In this document: piece after piece, positions 9,951-48,583 of the stretch
Position numbering within the stretch: position 1 is the stretch's first letter
Layout of the letters: each line of letters begins with the position of its first letter
Assembly (NCBI GenBank): GCA_018902385.1
Contig: JABSSW010000090.1
Location: 1-48,583 of the forward strand
Reading direction: 5' to 3'
Origin: Physcia stellaris
Taxonomy: Eukaryota > Ascomycota > Lecanoromycetes > Caliciales > Physciaceae
Length of the DNA stretch: 48,583 nucleotides
Notes under the pieces: model-generated
What the model saw: the letters and a program-made list of their open reading frames with translations, nothing else
Told to the model about the DNA's origin: nothing
The model's database searches: none
Translations under genes and position numbers: made by a program

Positions 9951-10052
9951 TTTCTTTGAAAATCGCGATTTGCACACTTTTTATTATTTGCGTGCAATTT
10001 TCTCTTTGAGAATTAAAATATTCGAAAAGCGAAAACAAAATTTGCGAATATT

Positions 10053-10205
10053 CGTCGAAAAATATTTGATTAATTTTAACGTTTAAAATTGATTTCGAAT
10101 CGATTAATCAAATAATTAAAATTATTGTTTTCGATTGTTTTAAATCAAATGAATTCGTCAAAATTTATTTTAATCAAATTTTAAATAATTAAAATTTGTT
10201 TTAAA
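10053..10205. repeat. Repeat F, uninterrupted copy (empty site of element C)
   Basis: The run containing CGAATCGATTAATCAAATAA and ending ATTGTTTTCGATTG, followed by AATTTGTTTTAAATT further on, matches the two flanks of element C (29240-29326 and 41092-41165). It is therefore a paralogous copy of C's target before insertion. What F originally was is not visible. Confidence 0.65.
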
Positions 10206-11448
10206 TTACGAACAAATTTGTTCGTGAATTTTTTAAAAAAAGTTCATGCAAAATTTCAAAATTAAATTCGAATCAAATAAAATTGCGAAAAACGATATTT
10301 CGCAATTGTTTTGCGATTTCAACGATTTCGCATTTTAATAACGTTTATGTTTAATAAATAAAACATATAAACAAAAATTAATTTTGAAATTCGATATAAA
10401 TTTTATTCAAATTATCAATAATATCGAAAATTGATCAAATGCGCATTAAGTTATAATCGAAATCGTATCAAAACGTTGCAAACATTTAAAAAAATGAATT
10501 TTTAAAAACGAAACGTTCGACGATATAATTTTGAAAATTTCAAAATTATTACGATAACAAATCGATTTTATTAATTTTTAAAACGTTAAAATGTATTTAT
10601 TTAATTTTACAATAAAACACAATTTATAAAAAAATATTCAATATATTCGTTTAAATGCGAATGATCGATCGAAAAAAATTTTGATCAATTTTGCGTTCGT
10701 ATTTGTTAAAATCGATAAATTCAATCAATATATAATTCACGTTTTCAAAAAAAAAAATTATATTTTATTTTATCAATCATTAAAATTTTCGAATTCGTAC
10801 AATTGTTGTATTGTTTGCATTGCATTCATCAACAACGTGTAAATTTCATGTATTTGATTAAAATTGTAACGCAAAATGAACGCATTTCAACGTCGTAATA
10901 TAACAAAAATTGATTCATTATCGCAATAATTGTGAAATTTGAAAAATATATTGTTGTCAAATTTGTATTCGTTTTGCGTCGATGTTGATTTTAATTCTGA
11001 AAATCAATTCGCAAAATTTTTTTAAAAATTTCGAACAAATTTGTTTCAAATAATTAAATGAAAATTATATGTAATTGTTGATAAAAATGCAAAATACGAA
11101 ACAATTTTACGAACACAAAAATTTGATAATACACAATTTATAAAAAAAATATTTAATTATTTTTATTTGACTTTTTGTCGAATCAGAAAATCAATTTTTT
11201 CGAAACAAAAACATCAAATTTCATCGCATTTTCATTTACAATTATTTCGCGTGCATACAAATTCATGAAATTATCAAATTGTAAAATTAATTGAACATAT
11301 TTTAACGCATTAACAATCGCATTAATTCGAACAATATTGAAATTGTTATAAAATTTGAAAATAAAATGAATTTCGAATTCGTCGAATTTGTTTCGCAAAT
11401 CAAGATTTTTTGATTAAATTTGATGTTTTTATCAATACTTAATTCAGA
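10206..11448. other. Saturated AT-rich DNA left of element A, unassigned
   Basis: A heavily mutated remnant, likely an older transposon into which A inserted. The longest frame (11183-11398 minus, 71 codons) has no motif. Some CT/AG words reappear just before element A (11430-11450). Confidence 0.4.
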
Positions 11449-11453
11449 TTTTC
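11449..11453. repeat. Target-site duplication of A (left), TTTTC
   Basis: Identical to the five bases at 18068-18072, immediately outside the 3-prime LTR. Confidence 0.85.
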
Positions 11454-11773
11454 TGTAAAAAATAAAAATTCAGAATTTTCGAAAATGCGATTCGCATTTG
11501 ATCAAGCAATTCGATTATCGAAATTCGAATGACTTCGAAAAAATCAATTTCAATCATTTTACAATTCGATCAACGATAAATTCAACAAATTCATATTTTC
11601 AATCGAAATCGATCGAATTCGTACGATTGAATAAATAAAATGTAAATAAAAAACAATTGCAAAACGTAATCTGTTTTGTAACGATTAATAAATCAATATA
11701 TTACATTTCAAATTATATATTTTTGATGTCAATAATTCATTAAATTATATTATTTTTAATACGAATTTTTACA
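11454..11773 (+). repeat. 5-prime LTR of element A
   Basis: It starts TGTAAAAA, ends TTTTTACA and aligns along its whole length with 17748-18067. Most differences from the sister LTR are at CT/TT or AG/AA positions, in both directions. Confidence 0.92.
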
Positions 11774-12282
11774 TTTTAATCGTTATCATATTTCAAAATA
11801 ATGTCATTCGTGTATGTTTAACAAAACACAATTTTGTTGCTTCGCATACATCATGTCGAATTTTGATAATAATTTGTTTTTTCAATTTGTCGAAAATATT
11901 GATTTATTTTTCTGATTGATTTATTACAAACAACAAATCGAAAAAATCACAAAAAAAAAAATCAAATTTCAAATTCGAATTGTCGAACGTTCGAAATTTG
12001 CAATCTTTGTTTTATTTATTTTTGTTTTTGATTTTGTTTGAAAATTTTTTGTCATGAAAATTATCGAAACAACATCGAATCAATATAAAAAAAAAATTAC
12101 AAAAAATGAAAAAAATATTGCAAAAAAATGAAAAATCAATTCACGCAAAACAACGTGAATCACATAATTTAATTTTCGAATTTAATCAAAATCGCATACG
12201 TTGATATTTATTTTAAGTCAAATAGCAATGCGAACAAATTTTGAAACGCAAAAATTGATTTTCATTCAAACAAACAATACAT

Positions 12283-12850
12283 TTGAAACGAATTCAAAAT
12301 TTTTTTAAAAAACGACATCGAACAAACAATCACGTTACAACAGAATTTTTTGAAAAATATCGCAAACACAAACAAAATCACAATCAATCGATTAAAAATT
12401 ACAATGTCGAACGAATAAATATGTTTGTTGAATTGAAATTCGAATTCAAATTCACGAATGCAATGAAATTCAACGATTTTCGTGACGAATTACGTTTGAA
12501 ATTTCGTTATATGTTTTAAAAAAAAAAAAATTTCACAAAAACGAAATTGTTTGAACGATTCAAACGTATGAAAAACGTTCAAATTTTGAAAAAAAATTCA
12601 AAATTTTCAAAAAACGTAAAATTTCGTTCGATATTGACAGTTTTGAAAATGAAAACGAAAATTCAAAATTGCGAAATTCAAAAATAAAAAATAAAAATAT
12701 TAACAAAATCAATTCGAATCACGAATCAATCAAATCGAAAAATATTCGAATGTATCGTTGATTCGTTAACGAATTCAAAAAAATTCAAAACAAAAATAAT
12801 TGTATAAATTGTGACAAATCAAATCATCAAATGAAATTTGCACAAACAAA
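12283..12850 (+). pseudogene. Element A gag with CCHC zinc knuckle
   Basis: The capsid/nucleocapsid region of the Gypsy element. A frame at 12283-12519 reads a charged capsid-like stretch (TEFFEKYRKHKQNHNQSIKN). The nucleocapsid knuckle is visible at 12801-12843 as CINCDKSNHQMK followed by a shifted cysteine, fitting C-X2-C-X4-H-X4-C with one extra base before the last cysteine. Stops and frame changes interrupt the gene. The family normally packages the element RNA into virus-like particles. Confidence 0.65.
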
Positions 12851-13079
12851 AAAAAAAAATCATTTTCGTTGATCAAATTTTTGAACAATCAAAAAACTAA
12901 TCGATTTGATAATTTTTGCTCAAATCGTTAAAAAAAAAAAATTTCGAATTTCGATTTCGATACGTCGTTTTTCTCAAACATAAACAAAAATCATGTTAAC
13001 AAAAAAAAAACGACGCAAAAATTCAAAAAACGTTTTGTGATTCGTAAATGCGTCAAAATCAAAATTAATATACAAAATG

Positions 13080-16000
13080 AAAATCAAATTTGAAACGAAT
13101 CGAAAACAATATTCGATACAAAAACGAAAATTAATTTGATAAATCATGTTTATGCGAAAAAATTCGATTTTCGTCGTTTCGAAATTTTAAATTGTGATGC
13201 AATAACAATTGACAATCATCGTTTGAAAACGTATAACGTTTATTTCGTACAATTCGAAATGTCAAACGTCAAAAAAATCAATCGTTTTTTCGAAAAATCA
13301 TTTTTGATCGTGAATTTGAATTGAAATTTAACGTTAAACATATTTTGAATACAATTTTCGAAAATCAAAATGAATTGAAACGACGACAATATCAAAATTT
13401 GACGTTGCAAAAAAAAACATTTCATTTTTATCACGAATCGTATCGAAAACATCGAATCAAAACAATTGACAAAAAACGTTATCGATAACGAAATCGAAAC
13501 GTATTTCATGTTCGTACGAATGTATATTGACAAACAATTCGACATGCATGAAATGCACGTTTCAAAACGAATTCAAATAAAATTTGCTTTGACGAAAATG
13601 AAAAAAAAATTCGATATCAAAATCACGTTTTTCGAAATTTTGAAAACGTATGAAAAATTCGATAACGAAAATAAAATTTACAAATTATCGAATCATGATT
13701 CAAACGATCATATTTATTGATTTAAAAAAAAACAAAAAATCGTCGCATGAATCAATTTATTTTTTATTTGAAAATCAATTTCGAATATTACGTGTTTACA
13801 TCGAAAAACATTTAATTAACGATTTCATTCGATTTTCACAATTTTTTGCAAAAACGTCCATTTTGTTCGTCAAAAAAAAAAACGATAATTTACGATTATG
13901 CGTGAATTACAAAAATCTTAATGTTTTCACGATAAAAAATAAATATTTTTTATCGTTAATCGATAAAAATTTAAATAAATTCAACAAAATCGTCAAATAT
14001 ATCAACATTGATTTGATTGTTGTTTATCATCGATTGCGTATCAAACATAAAAACGAATGAAAAACAATTTTTCGTATTCGATATGATCATTTCGAATATA
14101 ACGTATTTTTTTTCGATTTCATTAACGTTTCGACGACGTTTCAAAATTTTATCAATCGAATTTTGACGATTCGTTTCGATATTAACGTCATAATATATTT
14201 GAACGATATAATAATTTATTCGATAAATGTCGAAATTCATATCGACAATATTAAATGAATTTTTGATCGTTTTAAAAAAATAAATTATATATTGTTTTTG
14301 AAAAATGCAAATGATTCGTTGACGAAATAAATTTTTTTGAATTCGTTGTTTCATTCAAAAAATACGAATGAAAAACAAAAAAATCGAAATTATTCAACAA
14401 TGATTTGTATTTCGCAACGTTTTCGACATCATGCAATTTTTCGATATCGTTAATTTTTATCGACGATTATTAAACATTTCAATAAAATTGTTGAATTTCT
14501 GATCGTTATGTTAAAAAAATCGCAAAAATTACGAAAAAATATTCGTAAACGCAAACGAAATCAAAATCGAAATCGCAACAAATTTTCGAATATTCACATT
14601 TTTTTGATCAATGAAACGTTGAAAATTTTCAAACGATTTCGCAAAACATTTATCGAAATATCAATTTTACGTCATTTCGATTTCGAACGTGTTATTCGAA
14701 TCGAAATCGACGCATTCGACAAAATTATCGAAATTATTTTATGTCAACAAAACGACGAAAATCATTGACATTTTGTTGCGTATTTTTCGCGCAAATTGAT
14801 TTCGATCGAATGTCATTACGAAATTCATGACAAAAAATTGTTGATTATTGTGATTTCGTTCAAACAATGAAAACATTATTTCGAAAACGCAAAAAAACAA
14901 ATTTTTGTTTTTATTGATTATCGCAATTTGAAACAATTTATGATCACAATTAAATTGTCGTCACGTCAAATTCGATGAATTCAAAAATTGAATCGATATA
15001 ATTTTTTAATCGATTATCGTTTCGATAACAAAAATTTTATTGACGAATTTTCAAAACGATTTGATCACATGATGATTATTGAAAAAAACGTCGAAAACAA
15101 TCGTCAAATTTTGAAACAATTGCAAAAATTATTGATCGCAAATTCGAAACGTTTCGAAAAAATGCGAATAAATGCGATCAAAATCATAAATGCGATGCAT
15201 GTCATGAAACGATTCATGAATGCGATGCATAACATGAAACGTCGATCGCATTTAAATGATTCAACAATCGAATCAATTAACGTTGTTTCGAAAACATTTG
15301 ATTCAAAAAATTCAAAACGAAATCGAATTTCAATCAACGTTGTTTCGAAAACATTCGATTCAAAAAATTCAAAAAATTCGAAACATTCGATTGAACAAAA
15401 ATCAAACGTGACATTCATAAAATGAAAAATTTTTGTGTTAAAATCAACGATTGTATTTGAATGCGCAATGCATAAAATTCGAATACAAATTGTTTTACGA
15501 AAAAAAAACGACATATAACGACGAATCAACATTTTCATTGTTGAATTTCGTTCGTGATTTGATCGTTAAAAATCAATTCGTTTTTGAAATATGTCGAAAA
15601 TTAATTATTTCGAAAACAAAAACAAATCAATTGACAACACAAAAATGAATTTTTGTATTACGACGACGTCGTTTACATTTCAAAAAATTTGCGTGAAAAC
15701 GTTATTCGTGTCAATCACGATAATTCGTTCGTTAATCATTTCGACATCGAACGAACGTTGAAATTGATACGTCGAAAATATTATTGATCGAATCAAAATT
15801 TTATCGAAATTTTTGAAATGCGACAACAAATCAAAAAACATTGTGAAACATGCGTCGTTTGCAAACGAAACAAAATTGCACGACACAAATCATACGACGA
15901 ATTTTTTTTTTTCGATTTTTGAATTTAAATGAATTGATTTTTTCATGAATTTCGTGACAAAATTTTTTTCAAATAAAACATGAAATAAAACGATTTACGA

Positions 16001-17117
16001 TTCGATTTTAATGATTGTGAATCGTTTAACGAAAATGATTTATTACATATCAATAATTAAAACGATTTTCGCAAAAAATTTGATCGAAATTTTATTTCGC
16101 GAAATCATTCGATTTCACGATTTTTTTTCGTCAATCGTTATCGACAAAAATTTCATTTTTACGTTCAAATACAACGATGCATTGTGTTACGTTTTGAAAA
16201 TCAAACGTAAATTGTCAATCGTTTTTCATTTTCAAATCGATGAACAAATCGAACGAATAAACAACGTCATGAAACAATTTTTTCGAGTTTTCGTCAATTT
16301 CGAACAAAATGATTGAATAAAATTGTTGTTCATAATCGAATTCGTTTACAACAACAACAAACATGCATTTACAAACATTTTTTCGTTCGAAATTATGTTT
16401 GAATATTTATTTCGCATGTTTTTCGAAAAAACATGAAACAAAAAAATTAAATTCAAATTCGCAAAAAAACACGTTGAACATTTAATTGAATTATTTCGAA
16501 TATTGAAAAACAATTTATTCGTGACACAACAACAACAAACGATGTATAAAAACGAACGCACGAAATCAATGTCATACAACGTCGAAAATTACGTGAATTT
16601 GAACGATAAAAACATCAAAATTAAACGAAACAAAAAATTGAAATGAAAATTTTTGAATCATTTCAAATTTTAAAAATTATAAAAAATCAAATTTATCGTT
16701 TAAATTTATTCAAACGTTGACGCATTCACGACGTTTTTCACGTTTTTTTTTTGAAAAAATTTAATTTTTTTAAAAAAAAAAAACGCGCATACGTCACATT
16801 TTTTTGAATTTTTTTATCAAATTGAAAATATTGAATTCGACGAAAACATGAAAATGAAAATCACGAAAAAATTTTATGAAATCGAAATCATCAAAAACAA
16901 CAAAATTTTCAAAACAAATGAAATTTCAAACAAATTTTACAACGAATTCGATTTTTATTATTTGATAAAAAAAAAAATTATGAAAACGCGATTTGAAAAT
17001 TTACATCGTTTGTCAAACATTTTCGAAAAATTTTGCGACAATTTCACAACGAAAATTCAAAAAAATTTGATGTTAATAAAAAAACAAATCATCGAAAATC
17101 AAAAAAAAATGAATTGA
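13080..17117 (+). pseudogene. Element A pol: protease, RT, RNase H, integrase, chromodomain-like tail
   Basis: Protease region at 13136-13324 (HVYAKKF, FEKSFLIVNLN). Reverse transcriptase at about 13700-14300 with VKKKNDNLRLCVNYKNLN and the active-site box at 14196-14207, which reads YLND instead of YxDD. RNase H at about 14600-15070 (IRIEIDAF, FSRKL, YEIHDKKLL). The integrase zinc-binding cysteines CETCVVCKRN lie at 15842-15871 and the core IVNRLTKM, with Asp changed to Asn, starts at 16014. A chromodomain-like end lies at 16850-17060 (YYLIKKK, ENLHRLSNIFEKF). In-frame TGA at 14058, 14766, 14868, 14976 and 16314 stand where this family has tryptophan. Frameshifts also occur. The chain would otherwise copy and integrate the element; here it is dead. 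Confidence 0.9.
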
Positions 17118-17747
17118 AATATTTATTGCATGTTAACACATTTTCGTTTTCAAAATTTTGTGTGTTATTTATTGTTTAAAATTTACGACGCATGAAAAAT
17201 TGAATCGTGTCAAAAACATTTTCAAAAATTGTTGTTCGATTTGATCGAACGATAAATCGTTGAATAAAAATGTGAAATGAAATAAAAAAAAAATTTCGAA
17301 ATTTGAATATCAATGCGATCGCGATTAATGAACGTTTATCGCGTTACACATTTTTTCATGATATCGATGTTGATATTCGAAATAAAAAAATGAAAAAATG
17401 AAAAAATGTTCGAATTCAAAATTTTTGTCAACAAATCAATTGTCAATCATCATATCGAAAATTGTGAATGATACGAAATCAAACATTCGATCATGAAAAC
17501 AACAAACAATTGATTCATCAAATTATGTTTTTTTTGAATCATTCAAAAAAATGTTTTTTCAAATTTTTAACGCAAATTGATTATTGAATTCGAACAAAAA
17601 TATTTCGAAATGCGAAAATCACGATCATAATGATTTTTCAAATCAATGCAAAATCAAAACAAACAAAACACGTCAAAACAAACAAAATACGTCAAAATTT
17701 TGTTAACATGTTGATTTCAAAAAATTTCGATGCTTAAAAAAAACGTA

Positions 17748-18067
17748 TGTAAAAAATAAAAATTCAAAATTTTCGAAAATGCGATTCGCATTTCGTCAAA
17801 CAATTCGATTATCGAAATTCGAATGATTTCGAAAAAAATCAATTTCAATCATTTTACAATTCGATTAACGATAAATTCAACAAATTTATATTGTCAATCG
17901 AAATCGATCGAATTCGTACGATTGAATAAATAAAATGTAAATAAAAAACAATTGCAAAACGTAATTTGTTTTGTAACGATTAATAAATCAATATATTACA
18001 TTTCAAATTATACATTTTTGATGTCAATAATTCATTAAATTATATTATTTCTAATACGAGTTTTACA
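17748..18067 (+). repeat. 3-prime LTR of element A
   Basis: Pairs with 11454-11773 at the same length. It is followed directly by the TTTTC duplication at 18068-18072. Confidence 0.92.
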
Positions 18068-18072
18068 TTTTC

Positions 18073-21000
18073 AATGAAAAATATTATCAAATTTTGAAAT
18101 TGAAATCAAAAAATTCGAATTTTCAATTTTTTCATATCAAAAATCAATTTAATTCAGATTTGATTTTTGAAATTCAAGTTAAAAAACAAAAAAACGCTTT
18201 CGAAATCAAAAATAACGAAAATTTAATTAAAAAATTATTTTTTTAAATTATTCAAACGATTGAAAAATTATCGAAATAATCAATTTTTGCAAAGTTTCAT
18301 TTGACAACGTATTTATTCATCTATTTATTTATCGATTTATTTATACGAAAATCAAATTTTTTTTAATTATTTGACATTTCATGAAAAAAATTCAAAATTC
18401 GATTTCGAAATTTATTGCAACAATGTTCGTCAATTTTTCGCGAATAAAAATGAAAAAATTATCAAACATTTGAAAAAAAACGAAAAATTCAAAACATCGA
18501 AAACGAATCATTTTCTTTAAAATTTTTTTCGACGATTTAAATCATTTTCACGAAAATTCATTTTTATTTCGACAAACAATTTGTTAAAAAAACATAATTT
18601 AATTCAAAAAAAATATAAACAACGTTGACAAAAATTCGATATATTATTTTTCATTCAACGTTTTACGAAAAAAAAATTTTTTCATTAAAAAAATCGTTTG
18701 CGAAATCAACAATTAACGTTTTGCAAAATTATTCAAAAATGAATTTTATTTGAAACAAAATCGAAAAAATTTTGATTAAAAATAACGAAAAAAACATTTC
18801 GACGTTTTCGATCGTAAAAAAATCACGATATCAAGACGTTTCGAATTCATTTTTTTAACGTTTTTGAAAAAAAACATTGTTCGTCGATTCGATTCATAAT
18901 ATTTTCAAACATTTTATGATTTCGAAATGAAAAATTTTCAATTATCGAAAAACATTTGTTGTTACGATAATTATAATGTTACAATCAAAAAAAATGCAAA
19001 TATGATTTGTTTATTTTCGTTTTTCAATTGACAATTAATTTTGATTCAATTGATCATCGTTTATATTTATTCGTTTTATGTTGTTTTCAAAAAATACGTT
19101 CAATTTAATTGATGTTGATAATTAATTTTAATTTTTATCGTAAAAAAAATGACAAAAAAAATTTAATGTTTGATTATCAAACAATTTTCGAATGTCAAAT
19201 AATTAAATTAAATAAATAATATCATTAATGTAAATGAATCAACAATGTATTAAAAAAAAATTCGAAAAACAAAAACAAATTTTCATTTTTTCGTTTATTG
19301 TCAAATTTTTAACAAATAATTGATCGATATTTAAAAATCATATTCAAATTCGTTGTGATTTGAATTTTCACGAAATTTCAAAAATAATTTAATTTTAATT
19401 ACAAATTTATTTTTTTTTTGTTTTTGAAATTATTGAAAAAATTTTGATTTAATCTTTCAAACATTTGTTTATTGTAATTTTTTTTCGAAACAACGAACAC
19501 AATTAAAAATCAAATAAATATAATACACGACAAAATTTAAATACGTTAATAAAATCAAATTATGTGTTATGAAAAATTTACGAAATGACATCGATGTAAT
19601 TTCACGCACGTATTGATAAACGTATTCGTAAAATTGTTTGAAATACGTTTGATTTGACAAAATGTACATTTGATTTTTAATTGAATTATTGTTTTCAATA
19701 TAATTTTTTTCGAACATTTTCATTTCGACGATTTTGATATCAATATAACAATTTTTCATTCGAATCAAAATTAAAAATTTTCAAATTTGAATATAATTTT
19801 CGAAAACGAACGAATTTTAAATTGAACAATTTTCGTAATTCAAACATCGTTTTCGCATTGTTTCAATTCATGCGTTCGAACAAAATTTGTTCAATAACGA
19901 TATCATTGTTAACGACATTGCAACAAAAAATTTTTTCGTAAATTGATGAATACATTTTGCGCATATTTGCAAAAAAATTAATTGATTTTTAACGACATGT
20001 GACAAACAACGATTTTTGTAACATTGTCGCAATTCGAAATTTCGAATTCGTTTTTGTCATTTTTTGTCATCAACATAAAATATATTGTTATGAATTTTGT
20101 GTTCGTTGAATTTTTTGATTCATATAAAATTAAAAAAAAAATCGAATGAATTCAATTTTTGTAAAATAAAAAATTCACGTTGTTTCGAAATTTTTCATAT
20201 TTTCGTCAATGAAATTGTTGCGATTATAAAAATTGATACGATTTTTTTTTAACAATTTTCGATTTTTCAATCGATTATCATTTTTCAAAATTTTTATAAA
20301 TTTTTATAAACAAAAAAAATTATTATTTTCGTTTTTTTTTGTGAATGTTATTGATGTCAAATAACAATCAAATTTTTTTTTCATCGAATAAAATTGCGCA
20401 TTTCGATTTAAATTTCGAAATTCAATTGCATTATTAAACGAAAATATATTTATTGAATACGACATTAAACGATAATTATAATTCAATCGTAAACATATTA
20501 TCGTTTTGTACAACAAAAAAATCGTGCAAACAATTTGTTGTAATGTCGAATGTATACAATTTTCAAATCATTCGCGTTCGAATTATTTTTTAATGATAAA
20601 CGCATAATATCGATACATTTTTAATTCATTTAAAAAAATTTCAAAATCGAAAATGTTCAAAATCAATTATATGCGTTATTTATGTTCAAAAATTTTTTTT
20701 ATGTTTTTTATTCAATTCGATTTCGCGTACATTTTAATAATTTCAAATTTATATTAAATTTCATTGAAATCATGATTGAAAATGAAATATGACGACGAAT
20801 TCGTAATTGAATTTTTCGATTTTACAATCGATTTGAACGATATAAAAAATTTTAATAATTGATTTGATTTTTTATATTGATTTTGTTGAATTTGAAACAT
20901 TTTATACGTGAAATTTCGTTTAAATTTTTTAAATTTCGATCGATTTTTTTTTTTTTTCGATATCAATTTTTTTTTTTTTCGATATTTATTAAATTTTTTT

Positions 21001-21628
21001 TTTGTTGAACGAATGCGAAAACATTAAAAATCGCGAAAAACACGAAAACACGAAAAATCGAAAAATCATTCGAAAAACGAAAAAATCGAAAAAAACATAA
21101 AAACACGAAAACACGAAAAATCGACGAAAAAACGAAAATCGAAAAAAAAAATTCGTGCATAATGAAAAAATGTCAAAATTGTTTGATTTTCGATCGATAA
21201 AATCGAAATATTCGAAAAAACGTCGAAATAAAAAAATGTAAACGAAAAAAATGTTGAAATTTCGATTTGTTGATCGATCGAAATTCAATATTTAATAAAA
21301 CGTTGATAAATACGATTTTGAACGAAAAACAATATTGAAATTCGTTAATTCGTCAAAATCAAAACGAAACGTTCGATGAAACGTAAAAAAAAATTTCGAA
21401 AAAAACGTTAAAAATATTAAACAATGTTTTTCGATTTGTAATAAAAAATCGTTAAATTTATATTTTAATTCGCGATTTGTTCGTATCAAATTCAATTATA
21501 ACAAAAAATTTGTCGTAAAAAATGTTGCATTTCGTTTTTTTTTTTAAAATTTGAATTAAATTTTAATTGAAACATTTGAATTTTTTTCGTTTTTTTTGAA
21601 TTTTCAAAAAATTTAATTTGTTCACGAT
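18073..21628. other. Unassigned mutated repeat remnant between A and B
   Basis: 3.5 kb with the same dinucleotide depletion. Minus-strand frames of 60-100 codons recur at 19469-19768, 20304-20516, 20754-20966 and 21292-21495, which may be pieces of one decayed transposon gene read right to left. No catalytic motif is recognisable. The frame at 20989-21288 is low-complexity Phe/Arg/Ser sequence arising from TTC/CGA-rich DNA and is not credible as a protein. Confidence 0.4.
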
Positions 21629-21721
21629 GTAAAATTCAACATTTATAATATCAATCAAAATTTTATCGAATTTCGAAAAACAAATACATCGAAAATTCAC
21701 AAAATTTGTAAAAAATCATAA
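21629..21721 (-). repeat. Left half of an older B/C-family LTR, split by element B
   Basis: In reverse orientation it matches the start of the B/C LTR family (TGT..., then CGAAAAACAAATACA, then GTAAAAAATCATAA). The match breaks off exactly at B's left end and resumes at 29119 with CATAAACGAAATTCG, as in the uninterrupted reverse copies at 29327 and 40876. Confidence 0.7.
21717..21721. repeat. Target-site duplication of B (left), CATAA
   Basis: Identical to 29119-29123. The unsplit relatives of the target LTR contain the same CATAA once (for example near 40984). Confidence 0.85.
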
Positions 21722-21924
21722 TGTGACGAACGTACATCGAATTGAACATTTGACAAAAATATCGATTTAATATTATTTTATTATAATGTTAAAATCGAAA
21801 TTCGTTTACAAATTCAAAAATCAAATTTTTACATATGTTTTTGCAAATTTCATATATTTGTTTTTCATTTCGATATTTTCGTGTAATTATGTAATAATAT
21901 TATATTTTTGCATAAAATTTCACA
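21722..21924 (+). repeat. 5-prime LTR of element B
   Basis: 203 bases, TGTGACGAACG to AAATTTCACA, followed by TTATATCGAA, which also follows the family LTR in C and E. Confidence 0.88.
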
Positions 21925-23940: not shown

Positions 23941-23959
23941 ATTTGTTTTTGAATGATAA

Positions 23960-33904: not shown

Positions 33905-34079
33905 TGTTGAAACATAAAAATTCAAAACAATAAATGATTTAATCGAATAATATGACGATTCGTGCATCACGTGCTTTTTAACATCTTGACATTTTCACAT
34001 CATGTATTTTCATTTTTTAAATAGATGTTTTTAATTAATTGAATCAATGCATTCATTCAGAATCATTGTTATTTTGATA
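33905..34079 (+). repeat. 5-prime LTR of element D
   Basis: Aligns with 39078-39252 with about nine differences. Six are CT/TT or AG/AA, two are CA/TA and one is a single-base indel. Confidence 0.92.
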
Positions 34080-35203: not shown

Positions 35204-35696
35204 TTTGAAGAAACTCGTTATTTTGAATGAATAATCGAACAAAGAAAGAAAAACATTTCTACAACGAATTTTGATTTCATTATTTTTTTTACGTCAAAAG
35301 TTCACATTGAAATAATACAAATATCGATTAATAAAATGTTTTTTAATCGTTTTCATTTTTTATTTGAATTTTCGATTTCGAAATCACTCATCATTGTTCA
35401 AACAATAGAAAGTTGTTTTCAAAACAATTGAAAAAAATCAACGATATCGCAAATACAACAAACGATGAAACACTCAACGTTGAAAATTTAAACAATATTA
35501 TTATTACTCTTTTTAGTAAGAAAACTTTGACGTTTATTGATGTCATGTATATTTTGATTTCATTGTCAATTTAATCAATACATCGAAATTGTATCATCGA
35601 CAATGAATTATTACATATTTTGCTGATAAATCAATCGAATTACACAAAAACGACGATTTAATAATTCAAATCGATTTAATTAACGATCTTTTCGTA

Positions 35697-38600: not shown

Positions 38601-38990
38601 GTATTTTTATTGTCGACGAAACAATATTTTGAATTTCGAAACGTCAAAATCTCGTCGCTTTATCGAGTTATGAGTTCGAATATTACGCGTTGAACGAAAC
38701 GAATAAGAAAGTCAAATGACTTCGTGTTTTACTATTCGAATTCGATTACATTGATGTCGTTTTTGCATTAATTTGAACGAATAATTAGAACGTCATTGCA
38801 TTCAGCAAGAATTTCGAATTTCACAAACGAACGAAACACATTGACGTCAAGTATCATTGAATTCGTGAAATCGTTGAAAAGAAATTAATTCAAATCGATT
38901 ACGTTTTTATCGTTAACATGATTGTCGATGAATTAACGAAAATTTTGACGTTCAAAACGCATGTTCGATTTTTATTTTGTTGCAAATGAT
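35697..38990 (+). pseudogene. Element D pol: integrase, RT, RNase H (Copia)
   Basis: GAG-pre-integrase at 35805-35945 reads KTWHRRLIHSKYRNVIANFN and CEFCMLDR; the tryptophan codon TGG survives here. Integrase pieces follow (GVDIFF near 36005, then QQNDYIERIMYIVMNFVRF near 36285-36330). RT spans about 37250-38340. Its active-site box YVNDLFLF is at 38042-38065, and FDFAQHYLNIEMIRKNDFVF follows at 38129-38190. RNase H occupies 38390-38960 (IYHVYNLF, KYIQSAFRYDIEYVHDEKNF, then KFIDAN with TGA where tryptophan is expected). Frames are broken by TGA and indels. The first catalytic Asp of YVDD is Asn, so the copy is dead. Confidence 0.88.
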
Positions 38991-39077
38991 TTATTAAAAC
39001 GATGCGAAGAATTTAATTTTATCATATCATGATTGAAAATTGTTGTTTTGATCGATTCGATCACTATTGAAAAAAAA

Positions 39078-39252
39078 TGTTGAAACATAAAAATTCAAAA
39101 CAATAAATGATTTAATCGAATAATATGACGATTCGTGCATCACGTGTTTTTTAACATTTTGACATTTTACATCATGTATTTTCATTTTTTAGATAAATGT
39201 TTTCTAATTAATTGAATTAATGCATTCATTCAAAATCATTGTTATTTTGACA
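39078..39252 (+). repeat. 3-prime LTR of element D
   Basis: Pairs with 33905-34079. It ends TTTTGACA and is followed by ACTGA. Confidence 0.92.
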
Positions 39253-39257
39253 ACTGA

Positions 39258-40875
39258 TAAATCAAACGTATCAATATCGTGAAACTTTGATGTTGACTTT
39301 ACAGTAATCGTGTTTAATTCAGTTCGTTTTGCGACTTTTCGAGCAATACGTTTTTTCGTTTTTGAATTATTGTTTTCAGTTCTCGTTGTTTTGCGAAGAA
39401 AATGTTTTCGTTAAAATCATTTCAAAACGAAACAGAAAATTGAAATGCGATCGTTTCTTGTATCATTTTCAGACGAGATGGTTTTGAGAATTCAAAATAT
39501 GTATTCGAGCAACTTTGTTCGTCGATATCGATATAACGTCTGACAGTGTTGAGATTTCGTAGAAAATTCGTGACATCGTTGAATTGTTTGATTTCCGAAT
39601 CAGAAATGACAAACTCGAATTGAAAAAATCGATATCTCGAGAAAAATCGAAAAAATCGAAATTCGAAAGCAACGAAAGTATCGAGAACATCGCAGAAATT
39701 TGAAAAAAACGTTGATTGACTAAATAAATGAATATGATTTCGCAATGATTTCGAAAAAGACAAATAGTTTCAATATTGACTTTTTATCGAAATAATGAAC
39801 AAAGATATGAAAAATTTGAAAAATTGATTTGAAATTTGAATTTCGAATGTTATCGACTTAATCACAAATGACGAAAATTCAAGTCGATTTGATGATCGAA
39901 CAAATACAATTTTGAAAACTTTCAAAAATCAAATGATTCATGTATCGATATGAAATTGTCAATATTGAAAATTTTGTCGAAAAATTGATTGATTTTTTGA
40001 TTCAGTATTGATGTTATCGTCGAGATTCGAAAAAATGATCGATTCGCTAGAAATTTTGATGAAAATTCTGAAAGTTTTTCGAAACAAATAAATGATTCGA
40101 ATTCGATCGAAAAAGATGAAAAATTCGTTCGAAAATATTTGATGTAATTTTTCGATATGAGATTTCGAAAAATTGATATTGAATTCATCGCAAAAACTGA
40201 AAAAAAGAAATCATTTTATTAAAATCAACAAAAACGTTTTCGAATTGCTTTTCGAACAAAAGAATTGACATAATATCAAATGTTAATGAAAAATTAAATG
40301 ATTTTTTAACGAAATATCGATTCGTTTTCTGATTCGATACTGAAATTATCGAATTGATAGAAGAAAACAATCGATTTGCGAAAAAATTTGATAGAATTTC
40401 GAAAGATTTTCGAATGAGAAAAATGTTTCGAATATTGATGATCAAAAATTTGAGTTTTGATTCAACGACGAAATTTCTGATTCGATTTTTGATTCAAATA
40501 TGATGTTTTTTTGATGATTTAAATTTGATTTAATGATTTTTTGAATTTCAAACACGAATGTTTCGTCAAAAGTGATAAAACGAATTTAAATCAACGTTGA
40601 AAAAGAAAAAATTTGTTTTGAATCAAGACTATCGCGTAAATTCGTCTGTTTTGAAAATTAAACGACGCAAACGAACGAGTTTATTATGTTTCGTTTTTGT
40701 TTACATTCAGCAACGAATTCATTGTTGTTTGTTTCGATGTTTTTTTTTCGAATGATCGAACGATACGAATTTATTATGTTTCATTATCATTTGAACTTTA
40801 TTGAAAAACAAAATGTTTTGTTTATTTGATGTTCGCGTATTTTAAACGAGCATGACGTGAATGATTTCGATATAA
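39258..40875 (-). pseudogene. Element C 5-prime region, degraded ORFs
   Basis: Minus-strand frames at 40185-40445, 39922-40188 and 39422-39763 read Ser/Phe/Asn-rich sequence. One piece, CFEKLSEFSSKFLANRS, resembles the unmutated frame in element E near 42530-42580 (SFENSSES, then LATRSTSP in another frame). C and E therefore share this 5-prime interior. No enzyme motif was found. Confidence 0.45.
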
Positions 40876-41091
40876 TGTGAAATGTTATGCAAAAATATAA
40901 TATTATTACATAAATTACACGAGAATATCGAAATGAAAAACAAATACAAAGAATTTGACAAAACATATGTAAAAAATTTAATCATAAACGAAATTCGATT
41001 CTGTCGCTCGATGTGATAAAATAAAAATGTTAATTTTAATGATTGATCAAATGTTGATTTCAGATGTTGAAATCGATGCGCGTTCGTCACA
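40876..41091 (-). repeat. 5-prime LTR of element C
   Basis: Reverse copy of the B/C/E LTR (TGTGAAATGTTATGC to CGCGTTCGTCACA). It is followed by CATTG at 41092-41096. Some CT/AG words remain (ATTCTGTCGCTCG). Confidence 0.9.
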
Positions 41092-41165: not shown

Positions 41166-41780
41166 CGATTCAAAATTTACATTTTGAAACATTTAATTGT
41201 TTTAAAATGTTTCAAAATTTATCAAATTGTTTTCGTATTTTAAACAATTTTGTTGATTGAACGTTTTTATGTTTTTTCTCATTTGTTTCGTGCGCGTTAT
41301 CTGTCATTTACATTTTTAATGATTTTTTTTTATTTATGTCATTTTTTCGTTTTGAATATTACGTTATCGTTTTTCATTTTGAATAATAAGCGGACTCTGA
41401 ATTTTTTTAAAAATTCTTATTTGAATTTCAGGTGCGAGCAAGTCTTTCTTGAAATTACTTTGAGATGATCTTGGCGTATGCTTCGATTGAGAACTTGAAT
41501 TTTCAATTGATGAAAATTATCGAATTTAACAAAGACTTGACAGCTCGAAAACTTGATGTTTCAAAGCAAATATATCGTCAATATTGTCATTTTTTTTTAT
41601 TGTTACAGCGTTGAAATGTAGCTCAAAAAGCGCTACAATTACAGTTCACTTCATGAGTACGGTGCGTTGTGAATGATTGTGAGTGAGGATTGATGTTTGT
41701 GTCGCAAGAGGATTGACTTTCCGATTCTGGGAAAAAAAGTCAAGGGTAACCAAAGACATTTTTTTATAGGTTGTGTTCTA
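41166..41780. other. Transition into the unmutated island
   Basis: AT-rich and lightly mutated to about 41.4 kb, then ordinary sequence with frequent CT, AG, GG and CC. The segment TTTTGAATATTACGTTATCG (near 41350) resembles TTTTGAATATTAACGTATCG near 44411, so the two flanks of element E may share a repeat. No gene is seen. Confidence 0.4.
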
Positions 41781-41978
41781 TGTGACGAGCGTGCACCGGA
41801 TTCAACATCTGATTGTGAACTAACACTCTTATCTTATCACATCGGATGACAGGGTCGGGATTCGTCTATGATCAAACCTTCTACATATGTTCCTCGCAGA
41901 TCTACTAGATATTTGCTCTCATTTCGATATCCTCGTGTAGTTATGTATTAGTATCATATCAATGCATGACATCTCACA
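41781..41978 (+). repeat. Unmutated copy of the B/C/E LTR
   Basis: Against the C 5-prime LTR, GAGCG became GAACG, CACCGG became CATCGA, ATCTTATCAC became ATTTTATCAC, CAGGGTCGGG became CAGAATCGAA, and GTCTATG became GTTTATG. Neighbouring CA and CG sites (CACATCG, TTTCGATAT) are unchanged. Confidence 0.88.
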
Positions 41979-43350
41979 TTATATCGAAGTCACCCTAATC
42001 TCTTCAAGCTGCTCGGGGTACGACAGCTTACTCAATAAACAAGACCCCAAATCAACGCGAAGATCTAAGACGTCATCAATCAAAGCCTAGACGTGCAGCG
42101 AGTTGACGTAGTCCTGCTCGTGAGGTCGAAAGCCTAGGCGGTCTGAGTGAGAGCAACGAAGCCTCTACTCCACCCAGGTCACTCTTCAGGAAACAGCGGT
42201 TTCGAGTGTGGACTTCCACGGAAGGGCCATTCCGGTACTCAGCGAGACGACGAGGTAGTTGTAAGCTGTGGCCGAAGCGATTGGTTGTTGATATCCTCGA
42301 GCGTTGATCACGCACCCATTTAACCGACAGGCCATGTAGATGGCGTTCCTGAGTCACTTGTGACAACATAACCATTAAGTAATAAATCAGGCCTAGGCCA
42401 CCAAGTCAACGAGCCCCTACATTACGAAAAACACCAGATCAGAGCCCGACCAGAGGGTCGAAACCAGAAACCCCGTTATTCGGCCCAGAAACCTTCGATC
42501 GAACCTTTACCTCCTCGGTCGAACTCGGACCATCTACCTCCTTCGAGAATTCTTCAGAATCGTACCTACTTTGCTAGCAACTCGATCAACCTCCCCTCTC
42601 TACTCGATTGCTTTAATACTTCAGTCAGGAAGCTGTACGGCGGGTGACTGTGATATCAAGTCAAGAGGCCCTCAATATCCACGTTGCCTCAATACCGAGA
42701 CTACCTATCCCTTTCGAGAACATTGCCAAAACATACCTGTCTTCTTTACCGATCGACCATACTCTCTCGCCTCAGCGGTAGCCTCAGTATCGATCAGGAA
42801 GGTTGTTCAAACCTCCATCAACGTCTAGTATTGGAACCATCCTCCTCACTCCCAGAGTCTTTCGACATCCTACCTATCTACCTAACATATCAGCATCTGT
42901 TTCCTGTCTCGGTGTTGAACTCAATATCAAACCTTCAGAACTTTGCACCAGAAACGTCAAGAATCTTCTAGCGAAGCTCTTCCTCAGCATTCGATATCAG
43001 CACCATCTGACTTGTTTGAGAACATACCAGAATCACACCTGTTTGTCTAGCAACTAGCCCTGATTCCCGAATTCCGCGATAAAGTCAATATCACTTCAAT
43101 CCAGAAGGTTCATTACACTCATGCTCTGTTGGATACGATGTACACACCAACTCTCGCATATGCGTAAGTATCGATGCGTTAACCGCTGTTGCGCTGGTTC
43201 TATTAACATGACGAAAACGCTCGTCTCATCGTATAATCGGTCTGATGTTGCAAGGATTCAACGCCTAAATTAATGCCTTCATTACATTCAAAAAGCTCGA
43301 ATCTCAGATTCTTCACATCCGAAATTACATGCTAGATCTTCGAAAGTCAG
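41979..43350 (+). pseudogene. Interior of E, unmutated part, no intact protein
   Basis: Normal composition with frequent CC, CT, AG and GG. Ser/Pro/Thr-rich pieces can be read on the plus strand in shifting frames (LATRSTSP near 42570, KPPSTSSIGT near 42808). A minus-strand 99-codon frame (42076-42375) has no known motif. Comparison with the mutated 5-prime interior of C shows what that DNA looked like before mutation. Confidence 0.45.
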
Positions 43351-44141
43351 CGAAAATTGCTTGCTTGCTCCGACATTTACATTCTTGTCAAAATCTGCAG
43401 CATTTTCTGCAATAGATTTCAATCAGTTTTCTCGTCAAAGCGCTCGTGTCTCTTAATATCTTATTACAAAATCAGTCTGACACGTGCAAAGACTGTCGAA
43501 ATTATCAAGCCACGTTTTCTGACAGATCGAAAAAGACTTCACGAATCAATTCGACAATCTTTTTTTCGAAGTATTAGATTGCTACTTGACTGCGATGTTT
43601 TCGATCCGAATATTTCGCGTTTTTGCGATCGTCGATCAAATACAGATATTTCTATTTGTATCGAAGATTTGAAGAAAACAAATGTCATTAACGTCTGACT
43701 TTTTCAACACGTCTTTCGTTTTGCTTTGAGATTCTCGATTTCGAATATTTCGAAAATGATTATCATTTTCGTCTAATTGCAAATTCGCGAATTTCATGTC
43801 TGTAATCAGATTTTGAATCAGATTTCGAAAAACGTTCGTTTTTCTTCTGTAAAATTTATTAATGAGCATCGCGAATCGAAATTTGCAAAAGAAAACGTTC
43901 TTTTATCGTACGAAATGACGCGATATTTTCGTTTTATTTCATGTCTTAATAATTCTTTCGTTATGATTCAAAAAGTAAAATTTCTAATCACATGAACATA
44001 CAGAAATCGTTTTCGTCAACTTACCGTTTGATTTCTGTACGTCTTCGCGATTGTCGCGTTCGTTATGAACTAACTGGCATTTACAAACAAGTCGTAAAGA
44101 TCGCGTATTCTGTCGATCGATGAAAAAAAAAGCGATGAATT
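43351..44141 (+). pseudogene. Interior of E, partly mutated part
   Basis: Plus-strand frames at 43357-43698 and 43777-43995 (CIEDLKKTNVINV; REFHVCNQILNQISKNVRF). The C-pyrimidine words that dominate before 43.3 kb thin out steadily here. No domain is recognised. Confidence 0.4.
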
Positions 44142-44178
44142 ATCGTTTCGAAACGAATTGAAAAAAAACGAAAAATAA

Positions 44179-44363
44179 TGTGACGGCGTCGTCCAATTGA
44201 CATCTGACAAAATTAACATTTTTATCTTAAATATCGAATGACAGAATCGAAATTCGTTTATGATCAAATTTCACATATCTTTCGCAAATTTACTAGATAT
44301 TTGTTTTTGTTTCGATATTTTCGTGTAATTATGTATTAGTATCAATAACGCATAAAATTTTAA
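44179..44363 (+). repeat. Mutated LTR at the right end of E
   Basis: Starts TGTGACGGCGTCG and carries the family core TTTCGATATTTTCGTGTAAT. It is preceded by the family polypurine tract, as a 3-prime LTR should be. Confidence 0.75.
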
Positions 44364-47300
44364 GAATATACATATTTTTTTATTTGAATATTTATATCGT
44401 TTTTGTTTTGAATATTAACGTATCGTTTTTATTTATTTGAATATTACATAACTTCAATAATTTCGATTTTAAATTATTGACAATTTGTATTGTTTTTGTA
44501 ATATCAAATTTGTTTTACTTTTTCATTTCAGCGTATGTTTTGAATTTTTTGTTTTTTACGATAATCATTAACACCAATTTTCGTTATTGTATTTATTGAT
44601 TCGTATTAAATTATCGATCAAATTTTGATTGATTGTTTTTTTATCAAAACACGAAATCTGAAAATTTGTATTGATATATATTAAATCGTTTTTATAAATA
44701 CGTATTATTTCGCGTCGTTATTGATTTTTCGAAATGTTTTTATAATTTATTTGCAATTTTTTTCATTGAATTGTAATTTTAAATTTCGTTTTGATAAATC
44801 GAAATTTTCGATGCAAATATGTTGATATTTTTTCGTTTTAATACATTCGTTTTTTTATATCATGTTTGAAATGACGCAAAAATCGTACGTCAAAATACAA
44901 ATTGTTTTGAAAACAAAAAATGATCAAACGTTACCGTTTTTTCGACAATTCGATTGAAAAATTTTCGTTTTTATATTTATCATTAAATTATAATCAACGA
45001 TAACAAATTGGCGTCAAATTAAAAATTTGATTTTTATTTTTCGACACGTTTTTAATTTTTTTTCGTTTTTCGTATTGACACGTTTTAAATTTAGAAAATC
45101 GTTATTTAAATAAAAACGAATTTTCTTTATTGCGTGCAATTTTTCGAAATGATTTCGACTTTATCGATAAATTATCGATAACGTTTTTCTTAAATTAATT
45201 TTTAAATATACGGTGTTTTAACATCGTTTAAATAATGTCGAAAACAAAACGCCAGTCGTTTTACATTTTCAAAATTACGTTCAAAAAATATCGCGTAAAA
45301 TAAATTTTCGTACGAAAACGTTTTATTTTCGTTTGTTCGAACGATAAACAAAGACTGACGTCGTCGTTTTTGAAAAAAATATCGAGAATATTTTCGAATG
45401 TTTTGAAAATCGTTAATGATTTATCAAAAATCAACAATATTACGATTAACTAAAAAATTTCAAATGAAACAAAAAAACGAAAAAATTATCAAATATTTTT
45501 TTAATTAAAAATCAAAAAATAAAAAATAATACGAACAAAAAAAATCGAAACGTCGTTTCGAAACGTACAAATGTTTTTTTAAACGAAAAATTGAAAATCA
45601 AACGTAAATATTCAAACGAATCAATATTCGATTTTGAAAAGAAAAATACAATTGTTATTCACATTAAAATTTAAATCGATTCATTGAAAAAAATTTGACG
45701 TTTAATATTTTGATTGATACAAAATATGAAAAATTTTTTCGAAAATTTTGAATTTTTTCGTTTTCACGATTCAAATACGATAACGATTATTCGACGATTG
45801 ATAATCGAAATTCGAAATATTTCAACGTTTCGTAAACATTGCGCTTGTAAACAAAATCGTTGATCATTTTCAATCGTGTATTTTCTTACAATAATTTAAA
45901 AACAAAAATGAATTCGTGTGAAATACAAAATAATGTTTAATCGTCAAGTTTGAAAATTTATTTGCAATAAAATCGATTAATATGTTTCGATAATGCGAAA
46001 ATGATAATGCATACAATTTTAAAATATTACAACGTAAATGATAAAACGAAAATAACGAATATTACACAAAAAAATAATTAAAATATGCGAAATGATTTAT
46101 TAATATCGAAAAAAAATTGAAAATGTTACAAAAATCGATCGAAAATTGTACACGCGATTGTCGAATATATCGAAAAAATTTAAACGTCGAAATTAAAAAT
46201 AATATTTTGATACGATAAATTTAATTAAACATTTTATTTGATAATATTTGAAACAATATATTGTTTACAAAAAAAATTTGAATCGCAAAAAAATTTGATT
46301 CGTATTTTTAAACAAATTTCGATAAAAAATCAAAATCAAAATCGTCGATAATTTTATTAAATCGTTTCATTGTACGTTGACAATCACAAAATTTCGATTC
46401 AATATGACAAAAATTTCAAAATTATGTTTTTGTAAAAAAATATTTGTTTTTATTTGAAAACAACCTTTTGATCGAAGAAAAAAAATGTCGATATAAATCA
46501 ACAAATGCATTTCGATCATTTACAAAAATCGACGAAAACAACAATGTTTTTGAAAAAAATTCAATGAACTTTTCAAAAAAAAAATGCATGAAAACGATAA
46601 TCGATATTTTCAACATCATTTGCAAAACGTCATTCGCGAAACAATTATATTGTTGTTTTCGAAATTATTAAAAATCGTTGAATTTAAATTTCGAAAAATC
46701 GAATATATTAAAACGTTGAAATTTAAACGCGTCATTTGCATTAAAAAATTGACGATCAATAGTGTAAAAATTATTTGAAAACGAAAAAGTTATCGATTTA
46801 TTTGTTTGTACGAAATTTTTCAAAAAATCATGAATTTTTTTGTCGCACGTCGTCGAAAAACGTCGAACGAATTTTGAAAATGAAAAAATATTGAAATTGA
46901 TTGATATACATTCGCATTGAAAATTCAAAAATTTATTTCAAACGATGAATTCGACGAATTCGTGAACGTTGACGACGACAAAATGATACATTTGAAAATT
47001 TTTATTACAAATACAGAATGTTTCAACGATGTTCACGAAAATCGTTTTCGAATTTTACAAAGTTTTGAAACAAAATCAAAACAACATGTTTCACGAAATC
47101 GTACAAAAAACGACAGCGAATTTTTAACATTTTCGTTTTTTTGAATTTTTTTTTTCGCGATTCGAATATCTGAAATTCATATGATTTTATTTCGAATACA
47201 AATTTTTTTTCAAATTTTTTAGTCGTTTTTTTGTTTTGAATTTATTTCGTTTTTTTTTAATTTATTCGATCGTTTATTTTCGATTTCGAATTTTCGATAT

Positions 47301-48583
47301 TTGATTCGTTTTTCAAATTTGTTTTACTTTTGACAAAATTTCAATTCGATTTTTCGTTTTCGATTGATCGTTTTCAAATCAAATGTACAGTCAATGATTC
47401 AATCTAAAATTGTCAATCAGATTCATTTCGATTCAAAATCATTCAACAACAACGAAAACAAAAGGAAATCAAAACGAAAAAGCAAATTAAAAAACACAAA
47501 ACGAATGAAAAATGTTTTTAAAAATTCGAAAATTTTGAATTTCGAATTTTCAGAATTCAATTGCGATCATACGTTGTTGCAAAAATCGAATTTTCGAACG
47601 AATTGATTTTTTTTGTAATAACGATTTCATTGATCGAATACGACAATGTATTTAACATGCGAATTGATTTGATGAATACATGATGAAATTTTAATGTGAA
47701 ATGCGTTCAAATGTGATTTTTTTCGATTTTTCGATTTCGAAAATTTTGTTTTTTATATTTTGAAAATTCTAATTTGAACAAAAGAAAATTGCGTCGCAAT
47801 AGAAAAAATTTGTACACGTTTTTCAATTTTTTTTTCGCTTTCGTATTTTCTTTTTTATTTCGTGTTGTTTTTTTGTTTTTTCAATGAATCGACATTTGAA
47901 TTTTCGACAATTAATGTTACGCGATCATTGTTTGTAAAAAATTAAAAACGAAACGACATTTTGAAATCGTGTCAAATTTTTTTTCTTAAAAAACATGATA
48001 TGATTTTGTTGTAATTGAAATATTAATATTTCGATTGACAATTTCATCGATCAAATTCGAATTATTGATATCAATTTGACAATTGTTGAACGTAAAAATT
48101 CGTGAAACAATTTTTTTGTTGTTTCGTAAAATTTTGATTGTTTCGATCGAATAATTTTATTTCAAAAAAATGATTTTTGATGTTTATTGTTTTTTGCGTT
48201 GATTGTAATTCGATTTTTGATTTTGTCTTAAAAATATTTGCAAATTTCGTTTTCAATTTGAAAATTCAAATTTTTATGTAAACATATAAAATTCGTAATT
48301 GTTTATTGCATATCAATATTTTAAAAAATCGAAACGACGTGTATTATATTTTTAAATTGTCAAATTTTCGAATGTATGTTTGTTTGTTTTTTTGTCATTC
48401 GCAAAGAACTTTTTAATCATGATGTATGATTGTGATTACAAAAAATATCATAACAAAACGAAATTTATTGAATATGTTTGATGTCCGTTTGAAAATCGAA
48501 GCTCGTTTTGGAAATTTTGAAAAATAAATCGTAAATCGTGATAATTATAATGTCGATTGTAAATGATATAAATTAAACAAACA
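44364..48583. other. AT-rich mutated DNA, unassigned, to the right edge
   Basis: The same dinucleotide depletion as the main block, with scattered survivors (ACGCCAGTCG near 45250; GAAGCTCG near 48500). Plus-strand frames at 46444-46671, 46917-47144 and 47364-47606 (KRKSKRKSKLKNTKRMKNVF) could be pieces of one decayed transposon gene, but I recognise no motif. No LTR pair was found. Confidence 0.4.

Follow-up and report, generated by a model that had tools for sequence, protein, structure and literature searches.

Repeats of Physcia stellaris point to a mutation process related to repeat-induced point mutation that takes CpC first, CpT second and largely spares CpA and CpG

The window considered here is the whole of contig JABSSW010000090.1 (48,583 nucleotides) of the Physcia stellaris assembly GCA_018902385.1, which comprises 43,974,083 bases in 147 contigs. 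Contigs are referred to by C-numbers—the window being C90—and sequence stretches taken from the assembly by L-numbers. Left of about position 9950 the window is of normal composition with a GC content of 0.489, and it continues into AT-rich blocks that carry repeats and are interrupted by one little-mutated stretch at 41600–43900, called the island in the following (Table 1). Very probably, these blocks are the product of a repeat-directed C-to-T process of the type of repeat-induced point mutation (RIP), with a preference CpC > CpT >> CpA ~ CpG that is nearly opposite to that of Neurospora.

The signature is carried by the dinucleotides. At 9951–41000 (GC 0.238), CC occurs 2 times against 450 expected and GG 4 times against 427, which makes 6 against 877 for CpC and GpG together; CT is found 167 times (expected 1348) and AG 182 times (expected 1464), or 349 against 2812 for both. 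On the plus strand, C followed by a pyrimidine (CpY) amounts to 169, while 100 mononucleotide shuffles gave a mean of 1793 and a range of 1723–1864. Above expectation are CA (1796; 1503 expected), TG (1682; 1313) and CG (1775; 439), and TA lies below it with 1909 against 4497. Tiles of 1 kb from about 9950 to 41000 have 18–29% GC and odds ratios of 0.00–0.05 for CpC, 0.00–0.42 for CpT, 2.8–5.7 for CpG and 1.0–1.5 for CpA. The depletion is uneven, with CT odds of 0.14–0.42 at 30000–41000 versus mostly 0.00–0.05, at most 0.12, at 13000–30000. A first-pass annotation of the sequence had described CpT, CpC, ApG and GpG as almost absent from the AT-rich blocks of 9951–48583. This holds; the interval as a whole is not uniform, as around 41600–43900 the island is GC-normal to lightly changed. 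Its hand count at 13501–13620 is exact (9 CpA, 7 CpG, 1 CpT, 0 CpC), and so is the statement that each of the 17 G follows C or T—16 have their predecessor inside the stretch (9 T and 7 C), and the G at 13501 follows a C at 13500. The stop codons are skewed as well: at 12000–18000, plus strand and all frames, a single TAG stands against 126 TAA and 177 TGA. In the C10 copy of a two-copy element described below, tiles 4001–6400 hold a frame with 0 TAA, 0 TAG and 6 TGA, the restriction to TGA being partly circular as a low number of TAA and TAG was the basis on which these tiles were picked by eye.

Table 1. Features of the window and the ribosomal DNA pseudogene used for comparison (positions refer to the window unless a contig is given; LTR, long terminal repeat; SSU and LSU, small- and large-subunit ribosomal RNA; ITS, internal transcribed spacer)
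Feature	Position	Strand	Basis
GC-normal flank, normal CpY	1..9940		composition
Sugar-transporter gene fragment, open reading frame in flank	8304-9260	minus	PF00083, E 7.1e-66
CpY-depleted AT-rich block, near-saturated at ~13000-30000, less complete at 30000-41000	9951..41000		dinucleotide counts
Mutated LTR-type element, ~6.6 kb	11443..18077	+	end-to-end alignment with L019:1539-8204, 91%; terminal direct repeats
Left terminal direct repeat (pieces D6, D1) of the 11443-18077 element	11454..11780		94-95% to right repeat
Right terminal direct repeat of the 11443-18077 element	17748..18075		direct-repeat comparison
Repeat (island), GC-normal to lightly mutated, little-mutated reference for mutation order	41600..43900		copy alignments
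CpY-depleted AT-rich block, GC 0.233	44000..48583		dinucleotide counts
Mutated ribosomal DNA unit L042 (part SSU, ITS, 5.8S, part LSU)	C41:44399-47552; 5.8S C41:45899-46052		Rfam alignment

Composition alone leaves the mutated context to be read from what is missing, and copies of the same repeat give it directly. For this, the C sites of the less mutated copy were all counted, on both strands, wherever the other copy has C or T; the figures below are mutated over total C sites, going from the less to the more mutated copy. Out of 80 pairwise alignments, eight contrasts were tabulated; the choice fell on pairs that differ strongly in CpY and on the least mutated pair. From L035 to L037, the copies of the two-copy element shared by C10 and C42, CpC is mutated at 80/83 and CpT at 412/474, with CpA at 22/750 and CpG at 24/476. 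The older copies compared with the window are alike: from L019, CpC 15/15, CpT 304/320, CpA 58/797 and CpG 24/798; from L029, CpC 3/3, CpT 142/150, CpA 39/452 and CpG 14/474. The same holds for L035:6450-7146 compared with L043 (CpC 41/51, CpT 61/93, CpA 5/94, CpG 1/74). C:G-to-T:A transitions dominate the differences between copies—534 C-to-T sites, 93 transitions in the opposite direction and 32 transversions over the 5.3 kb of L036/L037—and CpY and CpR (C followed by a purine) differ in mutation with a Fisher p of 2e-303. It is the 3-prime base that decides, and the 5-prime base has hardly any effect: from L035 to L037, R-C-Y is mutated at 317/364 and Y-C-Y at 175/194, R-C-R at 19/554 and Y-C-R at 27/673. 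Scoring genomic copies by both neighbouring bases, as had been proposed for a check, thus finds CpY targeted and CpA not the main context. Across 11 mutated pieces CpA keeps a share of 5.9–7.5% (native 6.96%) and CpG of 4.6–7.2% (native 5.15%); CpC, natively at 5.7%, is down to 0.00–0.13% in nine of them, to 0.24% in L040 and to 0.82% in L035. The two strands differ in CpT from window 41781–43096 to L040 (48/95 vs 20/77, p 0.0016), the other seven strand tests giving p of 0.058 or more; this asymmetry may reflect strand-wise tracts.

The repeat of the island shows the order of events, as its four further copies (L038–L041) span 33–50% GC, L039 being the least mutated. The lightest pairs already favor CpC: L039 to island gives CpC 43/159, CpT 14/172, CpA 9/145 and CpG 8/128, L041 to island 26/95, 7/102, 4/92 and 2/85, and L039 to L038 35/137, 17/138, 2/116 and 5/108, in the same order. 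Toward the most advanced copy the figures rise to CpC 103/117, CpT 67/161, CpA 11/137 and CpG 9/121 (island to L040) and to 153/172, 61/157, 7/134 and 12/138 (L039 to L040). CpC and CpT differ with Fisher p of 7e-16 for island to L040 and 5e-6 for L039 to island. CpC is lost first and CpT later, and the copies stand at stages from light to full mutation. A simulation that starts from native sequence, with CpC mutated about 2–8 times as fast as CpT, approaches the CpC and CpT shares of the mutated pieces, and CpA and CpG keep close to native in it, as they do in those pieces; this rate model was matched by eye, with no formal fit. The earlier proposal of a strand-symmetric C-to-T change at C followed by a pyrimidine, run to near saturation, is therefore borne out for the target and for both strands and needs amending in one respect—CpC and CpT are not alike, CpC going earlier. 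The island itself, a little-mutated stretch inside a saturated block, is 91% identical to C6:1008872-1011163; ribosomal DNA had been suspected at about 42 kb, and an Rfam search of the window gave no match.

Ribosomal DNA does occur on C41, where the unit L042 is mutated at conserved sites with the same preference for CpC and CpT, as read against Rfam. Versus the uppercase letters of the Rfam consensus, CpC is changed at 25/29, CpU at 14/29, CpA at 1/36 and CpG at 2/34 sites; versus all consensus letters the figures are 54/64, 34/54, 5/53 and 9/56 (CpY vs CpR, Fisher p 7e-15). These counts come from six alignment blocks—three LSU, two 5.8S and one SSU—picked by eye for conservation. Scoring 39 of 2644 candidates in the assembly gave no second match to 5.8S, and hence the functional ribosomal DNA array is presumed to be missing from it.

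Whether the mutation follows repeats was assessed on a composition sample of 23 stretches, 20 of 10 kb and three methyltransferase loci, in 500-base windows; seven of the 20 were placed near known repeat matches. GC content is bimodal, with 178 windows below 36%, two at 36–40% and 278 at 40% or more. All 178 AT-rich windows are CpY-depleted (odds below 0.4 in 160, 0.4–0.75 in 18, none higher), and the windows of at least 40% GC are normal, with CC odds of 0.88–1.12 and CT odds of 1.01–1.12 by GC bin. The 13 stretches not placed near repeats hold 45 AT-rich windows out of 260. A genome-wide search found other copies for seven of eight AT-rich queries, the exception being L042, which matched only itself. 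Window 13501–14500 (plus strand) has at least 40 near-full-length places in the genome, the window included, at 90–100% identity (40 of 208 candidates scored). A second mutated family, at window 21000–25000, has at least 51 matches (40 of 506 candidates scored), the long ones elsewhere being 74–85% identical. L035:1500-4500 has two places and L035:150-680, part of the same element, three; L023:2800-6000, L025:1-4200 and L033:3001-6000 each have further copies. In the sampled stretches repeats are mutated and single-copy DNA is spared: the depletion is confined to AT-rich windows, as the first-pass annotation would have it, and its tie to repeats stands apart from the ribosomal pseudogene without a second copy in the assembly.

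One duplication allows for a closer look at this tie. The sequence shared by C10 and C42 spans L035:673-7146, and its end on C42 lies at L043:639. There, C42 is normal up to about L043:700 and CpY-depleted beyond, so that the mutated tract starts about 60 bases inside the duplication edge—mutation stops near the edge, at the one edge that this concerns. Both copies are mutated, with CC shares of 0.82% on C10 (L035:201-6400) and 0.01% on C42 versus 5.7% natively. Mutated sequence at L035:201-672, outside the first alignment, was considered as a counter-example and rejected on finding copies at C42:428106 and C62:42085; L035:150-680 resumes on C42 about 7.5 kb further along, and on C62. The C42 copy seems to be interrupted by some 7.5 kb of inserted sequence (C42:420602-428106), whose first 0.7 kb (L037:5329-6000) matches window 28447–29118 at 78%.

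Standard RIP indices are blind to all this. With criteria of at least 1.1 for the product index TpA/ApT, at most 0.75 for the substrate index and a composite above 0, none of the 76 tiles of window 9951–48583 (GC-normal island included) and none of 88 sampled AT-rich tiles is positive, 0/164 in total; published thresholds of 1.15 and 0.75 are stricter than those applied (PMC7882544). Indices built on CpA loss are negative since CpA and CpG are left near their native frequency, just as had been predicted from the sequence of the window. Canonical RIP of the Neurospora type, with CpA preferred, TpA enriched and indices positive, is hence not what these repeats display.

A genome search with PF00145 found three methyltransferase genes, on C3, C5 and C6, and no fourth, though a divergent one could escape such a search. 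The C3 gene is of the DIM-2 type, with an open frame of 1118 codons. Its best match in the Protein Data Bank is 9bap_A (E 4.6e-188, query residues 66–286 and 329–1014), a chain that we take to be Neurospora DIM-2; the match covers the catalytic part and the region before it, which places the gene with the DIM-2 methyltransferases. The other two are of the RID class: C5 (L015) has PCQ in motif IV and EQT in motif VI, and C6 (L013) has PCQ and EET, its frame staying open to a C-terminal QIGNAVPP when introns, as placed by eye, are taken out. Over the catalytic part their identity is 43%; between motifs VIII and IX lie 77 and 83 residues (limits by eye). Pfam returned nothing for the C5 piece L015:5150-7204, a piece that ends before the catalytic end. 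RID proteins are recognized by a motif IV with PCQ, a motif VI with EQT or EET and a short target recognition domain; Neurospora, Ascobolus and Podospora are listed with EQT, and Botrytis and Pseudogymnoascus with EET (PMC6709928). By these features both proteins are RID/Masc1 methyltransferases, and the search for RID- and DIM-2-type genes that had been suggested yields two genes of the former type and one of the latter. One genome thereby bears two RID-class paralogs, one per known motif VI type. The EET type might go with CpY reading, as Botrytis has the EET type and is among the three species with a CpT signature (PMC4352252; PMC6709928).

The process proposed for these data would target C followed by a pyrimidine on both strands, CpC first and fastest and CpT second, roughly 2–8 times slower on the simple rate model, with CpA and CpG almost untouched. 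At saturation it would have removed CpC, CpT, ApG and GpG and turned TGG into TGA. It would act in the sexual phase, as in RIP, and the mutator would be a C5-methyltransferase of this genome—most likely the EET-type RID on C6, to which DIM-2 or the EQT-type RID may contribute the change at CpT. Spelled out as a two-step defense, the EET-type RID would read CpY with CpC first, DIM-2 or the EQT-type RID would extend the mutation to CpT, and the ranking, nearly the reverse of Neurospora's, would let CpA-based surveys score the process as absent; in this full form the proposal is tentative, and we would rather bet against it as a whole than for it.

Several observations weigh against the repeat-directed reading or limit it. 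CpA is not fully exempt: in the oldest contrasts 7–9% of CpA is mutated versus 3% of CpG, a weak and slow CpA component in the copies compared as L019 and L029 with the window. Some sequences recur in several contrasts, which makes these dependent on one another. Mutation polarity is assumed, and differences in the reverse direction exist in all eight contrasts: 77 forward and 40 reverse for L039/island (reverse CpC 13, CpT 10, CpA 8, CpG 9), 40 and 20 for L041/island, 61 and 27 for L039/L038, and 538 and 93 for L035/L037 (reverse CpT 41, CpA 30, CpG 22, CpC 0), beside 196 and 29 for island/L040 and 237/24, 402/45 and 201/30 for the remaining three. As reverse differences reach about half of the forward ones in the lightest pairs, the background at the lightest stage is sizeable. 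The priority of CpC comes mainly from one repeat family (L038–L041 and the island) and one ribosomal DNA pseudogene, whose status as a repeat is presumed, as the assembly contains no other copy of it. The mutated fractions of CpC and CpT vary between copies—0.80 and 0.66 in L043, 0.88 and 0.42 in L040—and such a varying balance is not obviously given by one enzyme of fixed ratio. Finally, on C10 the duplication ends in 0.7 kb (L035:6450-7146) that are only lightly mutated, with a CC share of 3.81%.

Among other explanations, the one that deserves most attention does without a dedicated RIP step: DIM-2 would methylate heterochromatic repeats at CpY, and ordinary deamination of 5-methylcytosine would turn these sites into T. 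The genome does have a DIM-2 homolog whose open frame is long (E 4.6e-188), copies exist at all stages of mutation, and in Neurospora DIM-2 prefers CpT and older heterochromatic repeats need it (review, PMC13297926). Yet CpC is mutated before CpT here, the depletion is extreme—2 CC in 31 kb—while CpA and CpG stay near their native share, and the tract edge lies within about 60 bases of the duplication edge, which spreading heterochromatin is expected to blur; we consider this explanation unlikely. Methylation without mutation, as in methylation induced premeiotically (MIP), was set aside, since the copies carry fixed C-to-T differences.

The remaining alternatives fare worse. UV or APOBEC-type damage gives C-to-T as well, and dipyrimidines are involved here, so that a deaminase or UV damage reading a 5-prime pyrimidine (TpC or CpC) might be invoked; Y-C-R at 27/673 versus R-C-Y at 317/364 refutes this for 5-prime-directed agents, which makes it very improbable. 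A search for APOBEC_N gave no matches and has little weight, as the control matched nowhere either. Fungal genomes often contain AT-rich blocks, which could speak for neutral drift toward AT, a composition native to the transposons or an assembly artefact, but copies that differ by hundreds of CpY C-to-T changes and few transversions (534 vs 32 in L036/L037), a ribosomal DNA pseudogene with the same pattern and normal adjoining DNA leave hardly any probability for it. That canonical CpA-directed RIP is at work and the composition misread has the presence of RID- and DIM-2-type genes in its favor; we give it practically no credence, as the copies refute it with CpA at 22/750 versus CpT at 412/474, TpA at 1909 versus 4497 expected and 0/164 positive tiles. 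The repeat-directed, CpC-led process hence remains the very probable explanation.

Concerning the repeats of the window themselves, the LTR-type element (Table 1) seems to carry a gypsy-like pol, recognized by eye only, and Pfam finds no family in the 136-residue open reading frame at 13650–14060 nor in the broken frames at 16011–16316 and 34694–35203.

A target rule of this kind would have consequences for genes, as by it CAA and CAG are not turned into stops and TGG becomes TGA. The pair of RID paralogs, which represents both types of motif VI where the preference is strong and deviant, also provides a natural test of which part of RID reads the base after C. Surveys of RIP built on CpA loss and TpA gain would find nothing here, 0/164 tiles despite near-saturated mutation, and if the two-step reading is true, CpC-initiated systems might be widespread and have gone unnoticed. 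From a screen published in 2025, covering 1,239 fungal genomes, it was concluded that RIP-like defenses share a preference for CpA (PMC12543289); the present genome is an exception to this conclusion.

How far this departs from known systems is best seen against the published contexts. CpA is named for Mycosphaerella graminicola (PMC4522978); for RIP-mutated ITS and ribosomal RNA pseudogenes, among which Neurospora shows a higher rate at CpT (PMC7493409; PMC5555474); and for Monilinia, together with CpC-to-TpT double changes (PMC8959702). In S. nodorum CpA, CpC and CpG are depleted and CpA-to-TpA dominates, and CpT has been noted in this species as well as in Neurospora Tad1 and Magnaporthe (PMC2621366; PMC3017866). 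Fungi with RID and DIM-2 show non-CG methylation (PMC7862722). For RIP-capable controls CpT-to-TpT is named as dominant in alignments (PMC7882544), which weakens the novelty of the CpT target, not that of CpC or of CpA sparing. The first-pass annotation knew of no described system with this 3-prime context at this completeness. CpT preference is in print for some fungi, together with CpA, and only the CpC-first, CpA-sparing part looks new, as no report of such RIP was found in the open-licence PMC literature, as represented by parts of its papers and with subscription papers outside its scope.

RIP of Neurospora crassa likewise puts C:G-to-T:A changes into repeats on both strands and comes with RID-class and DIM-2-type genes; its ranking is CpA > CpT > CpG > CpC (PMC5496416), whereas here CpC > CpT >> CpA ~ CpG applies, TpA is below expectation and the standard index is negative. 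Trichoderma reesei also departs from the Neurospora ranking, with C-to-T changes seen in the progeny of crosses, but is led by CpA ~ CpG, with CpT > CpC (the sign between CpG and CpT is missing in the source), and not by CpC (PMC5496416). In basidiomycetes such as Microbotryum, mutation of transposable elements is CpG-directed and linked to a Masc2-type enzyme (PMC4352252)—a similar lineage-specific shift in the 3-prime base that is read; in the present genome, which has enzymes of the RID class, CpG is spared. Magnaporthe oryzae, Botrytis cinerea and Sclerotinia sclerotiorum have RIP-like signatures in which CpT is a main target (10–40% of transposable elements) beside CpA (10–35%), and a RID-class gene as well; in P. 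stellaris, however, CpA is spared and CpC leads, a dinucleotide absent as a term from the main text of that study (PMC4352252).

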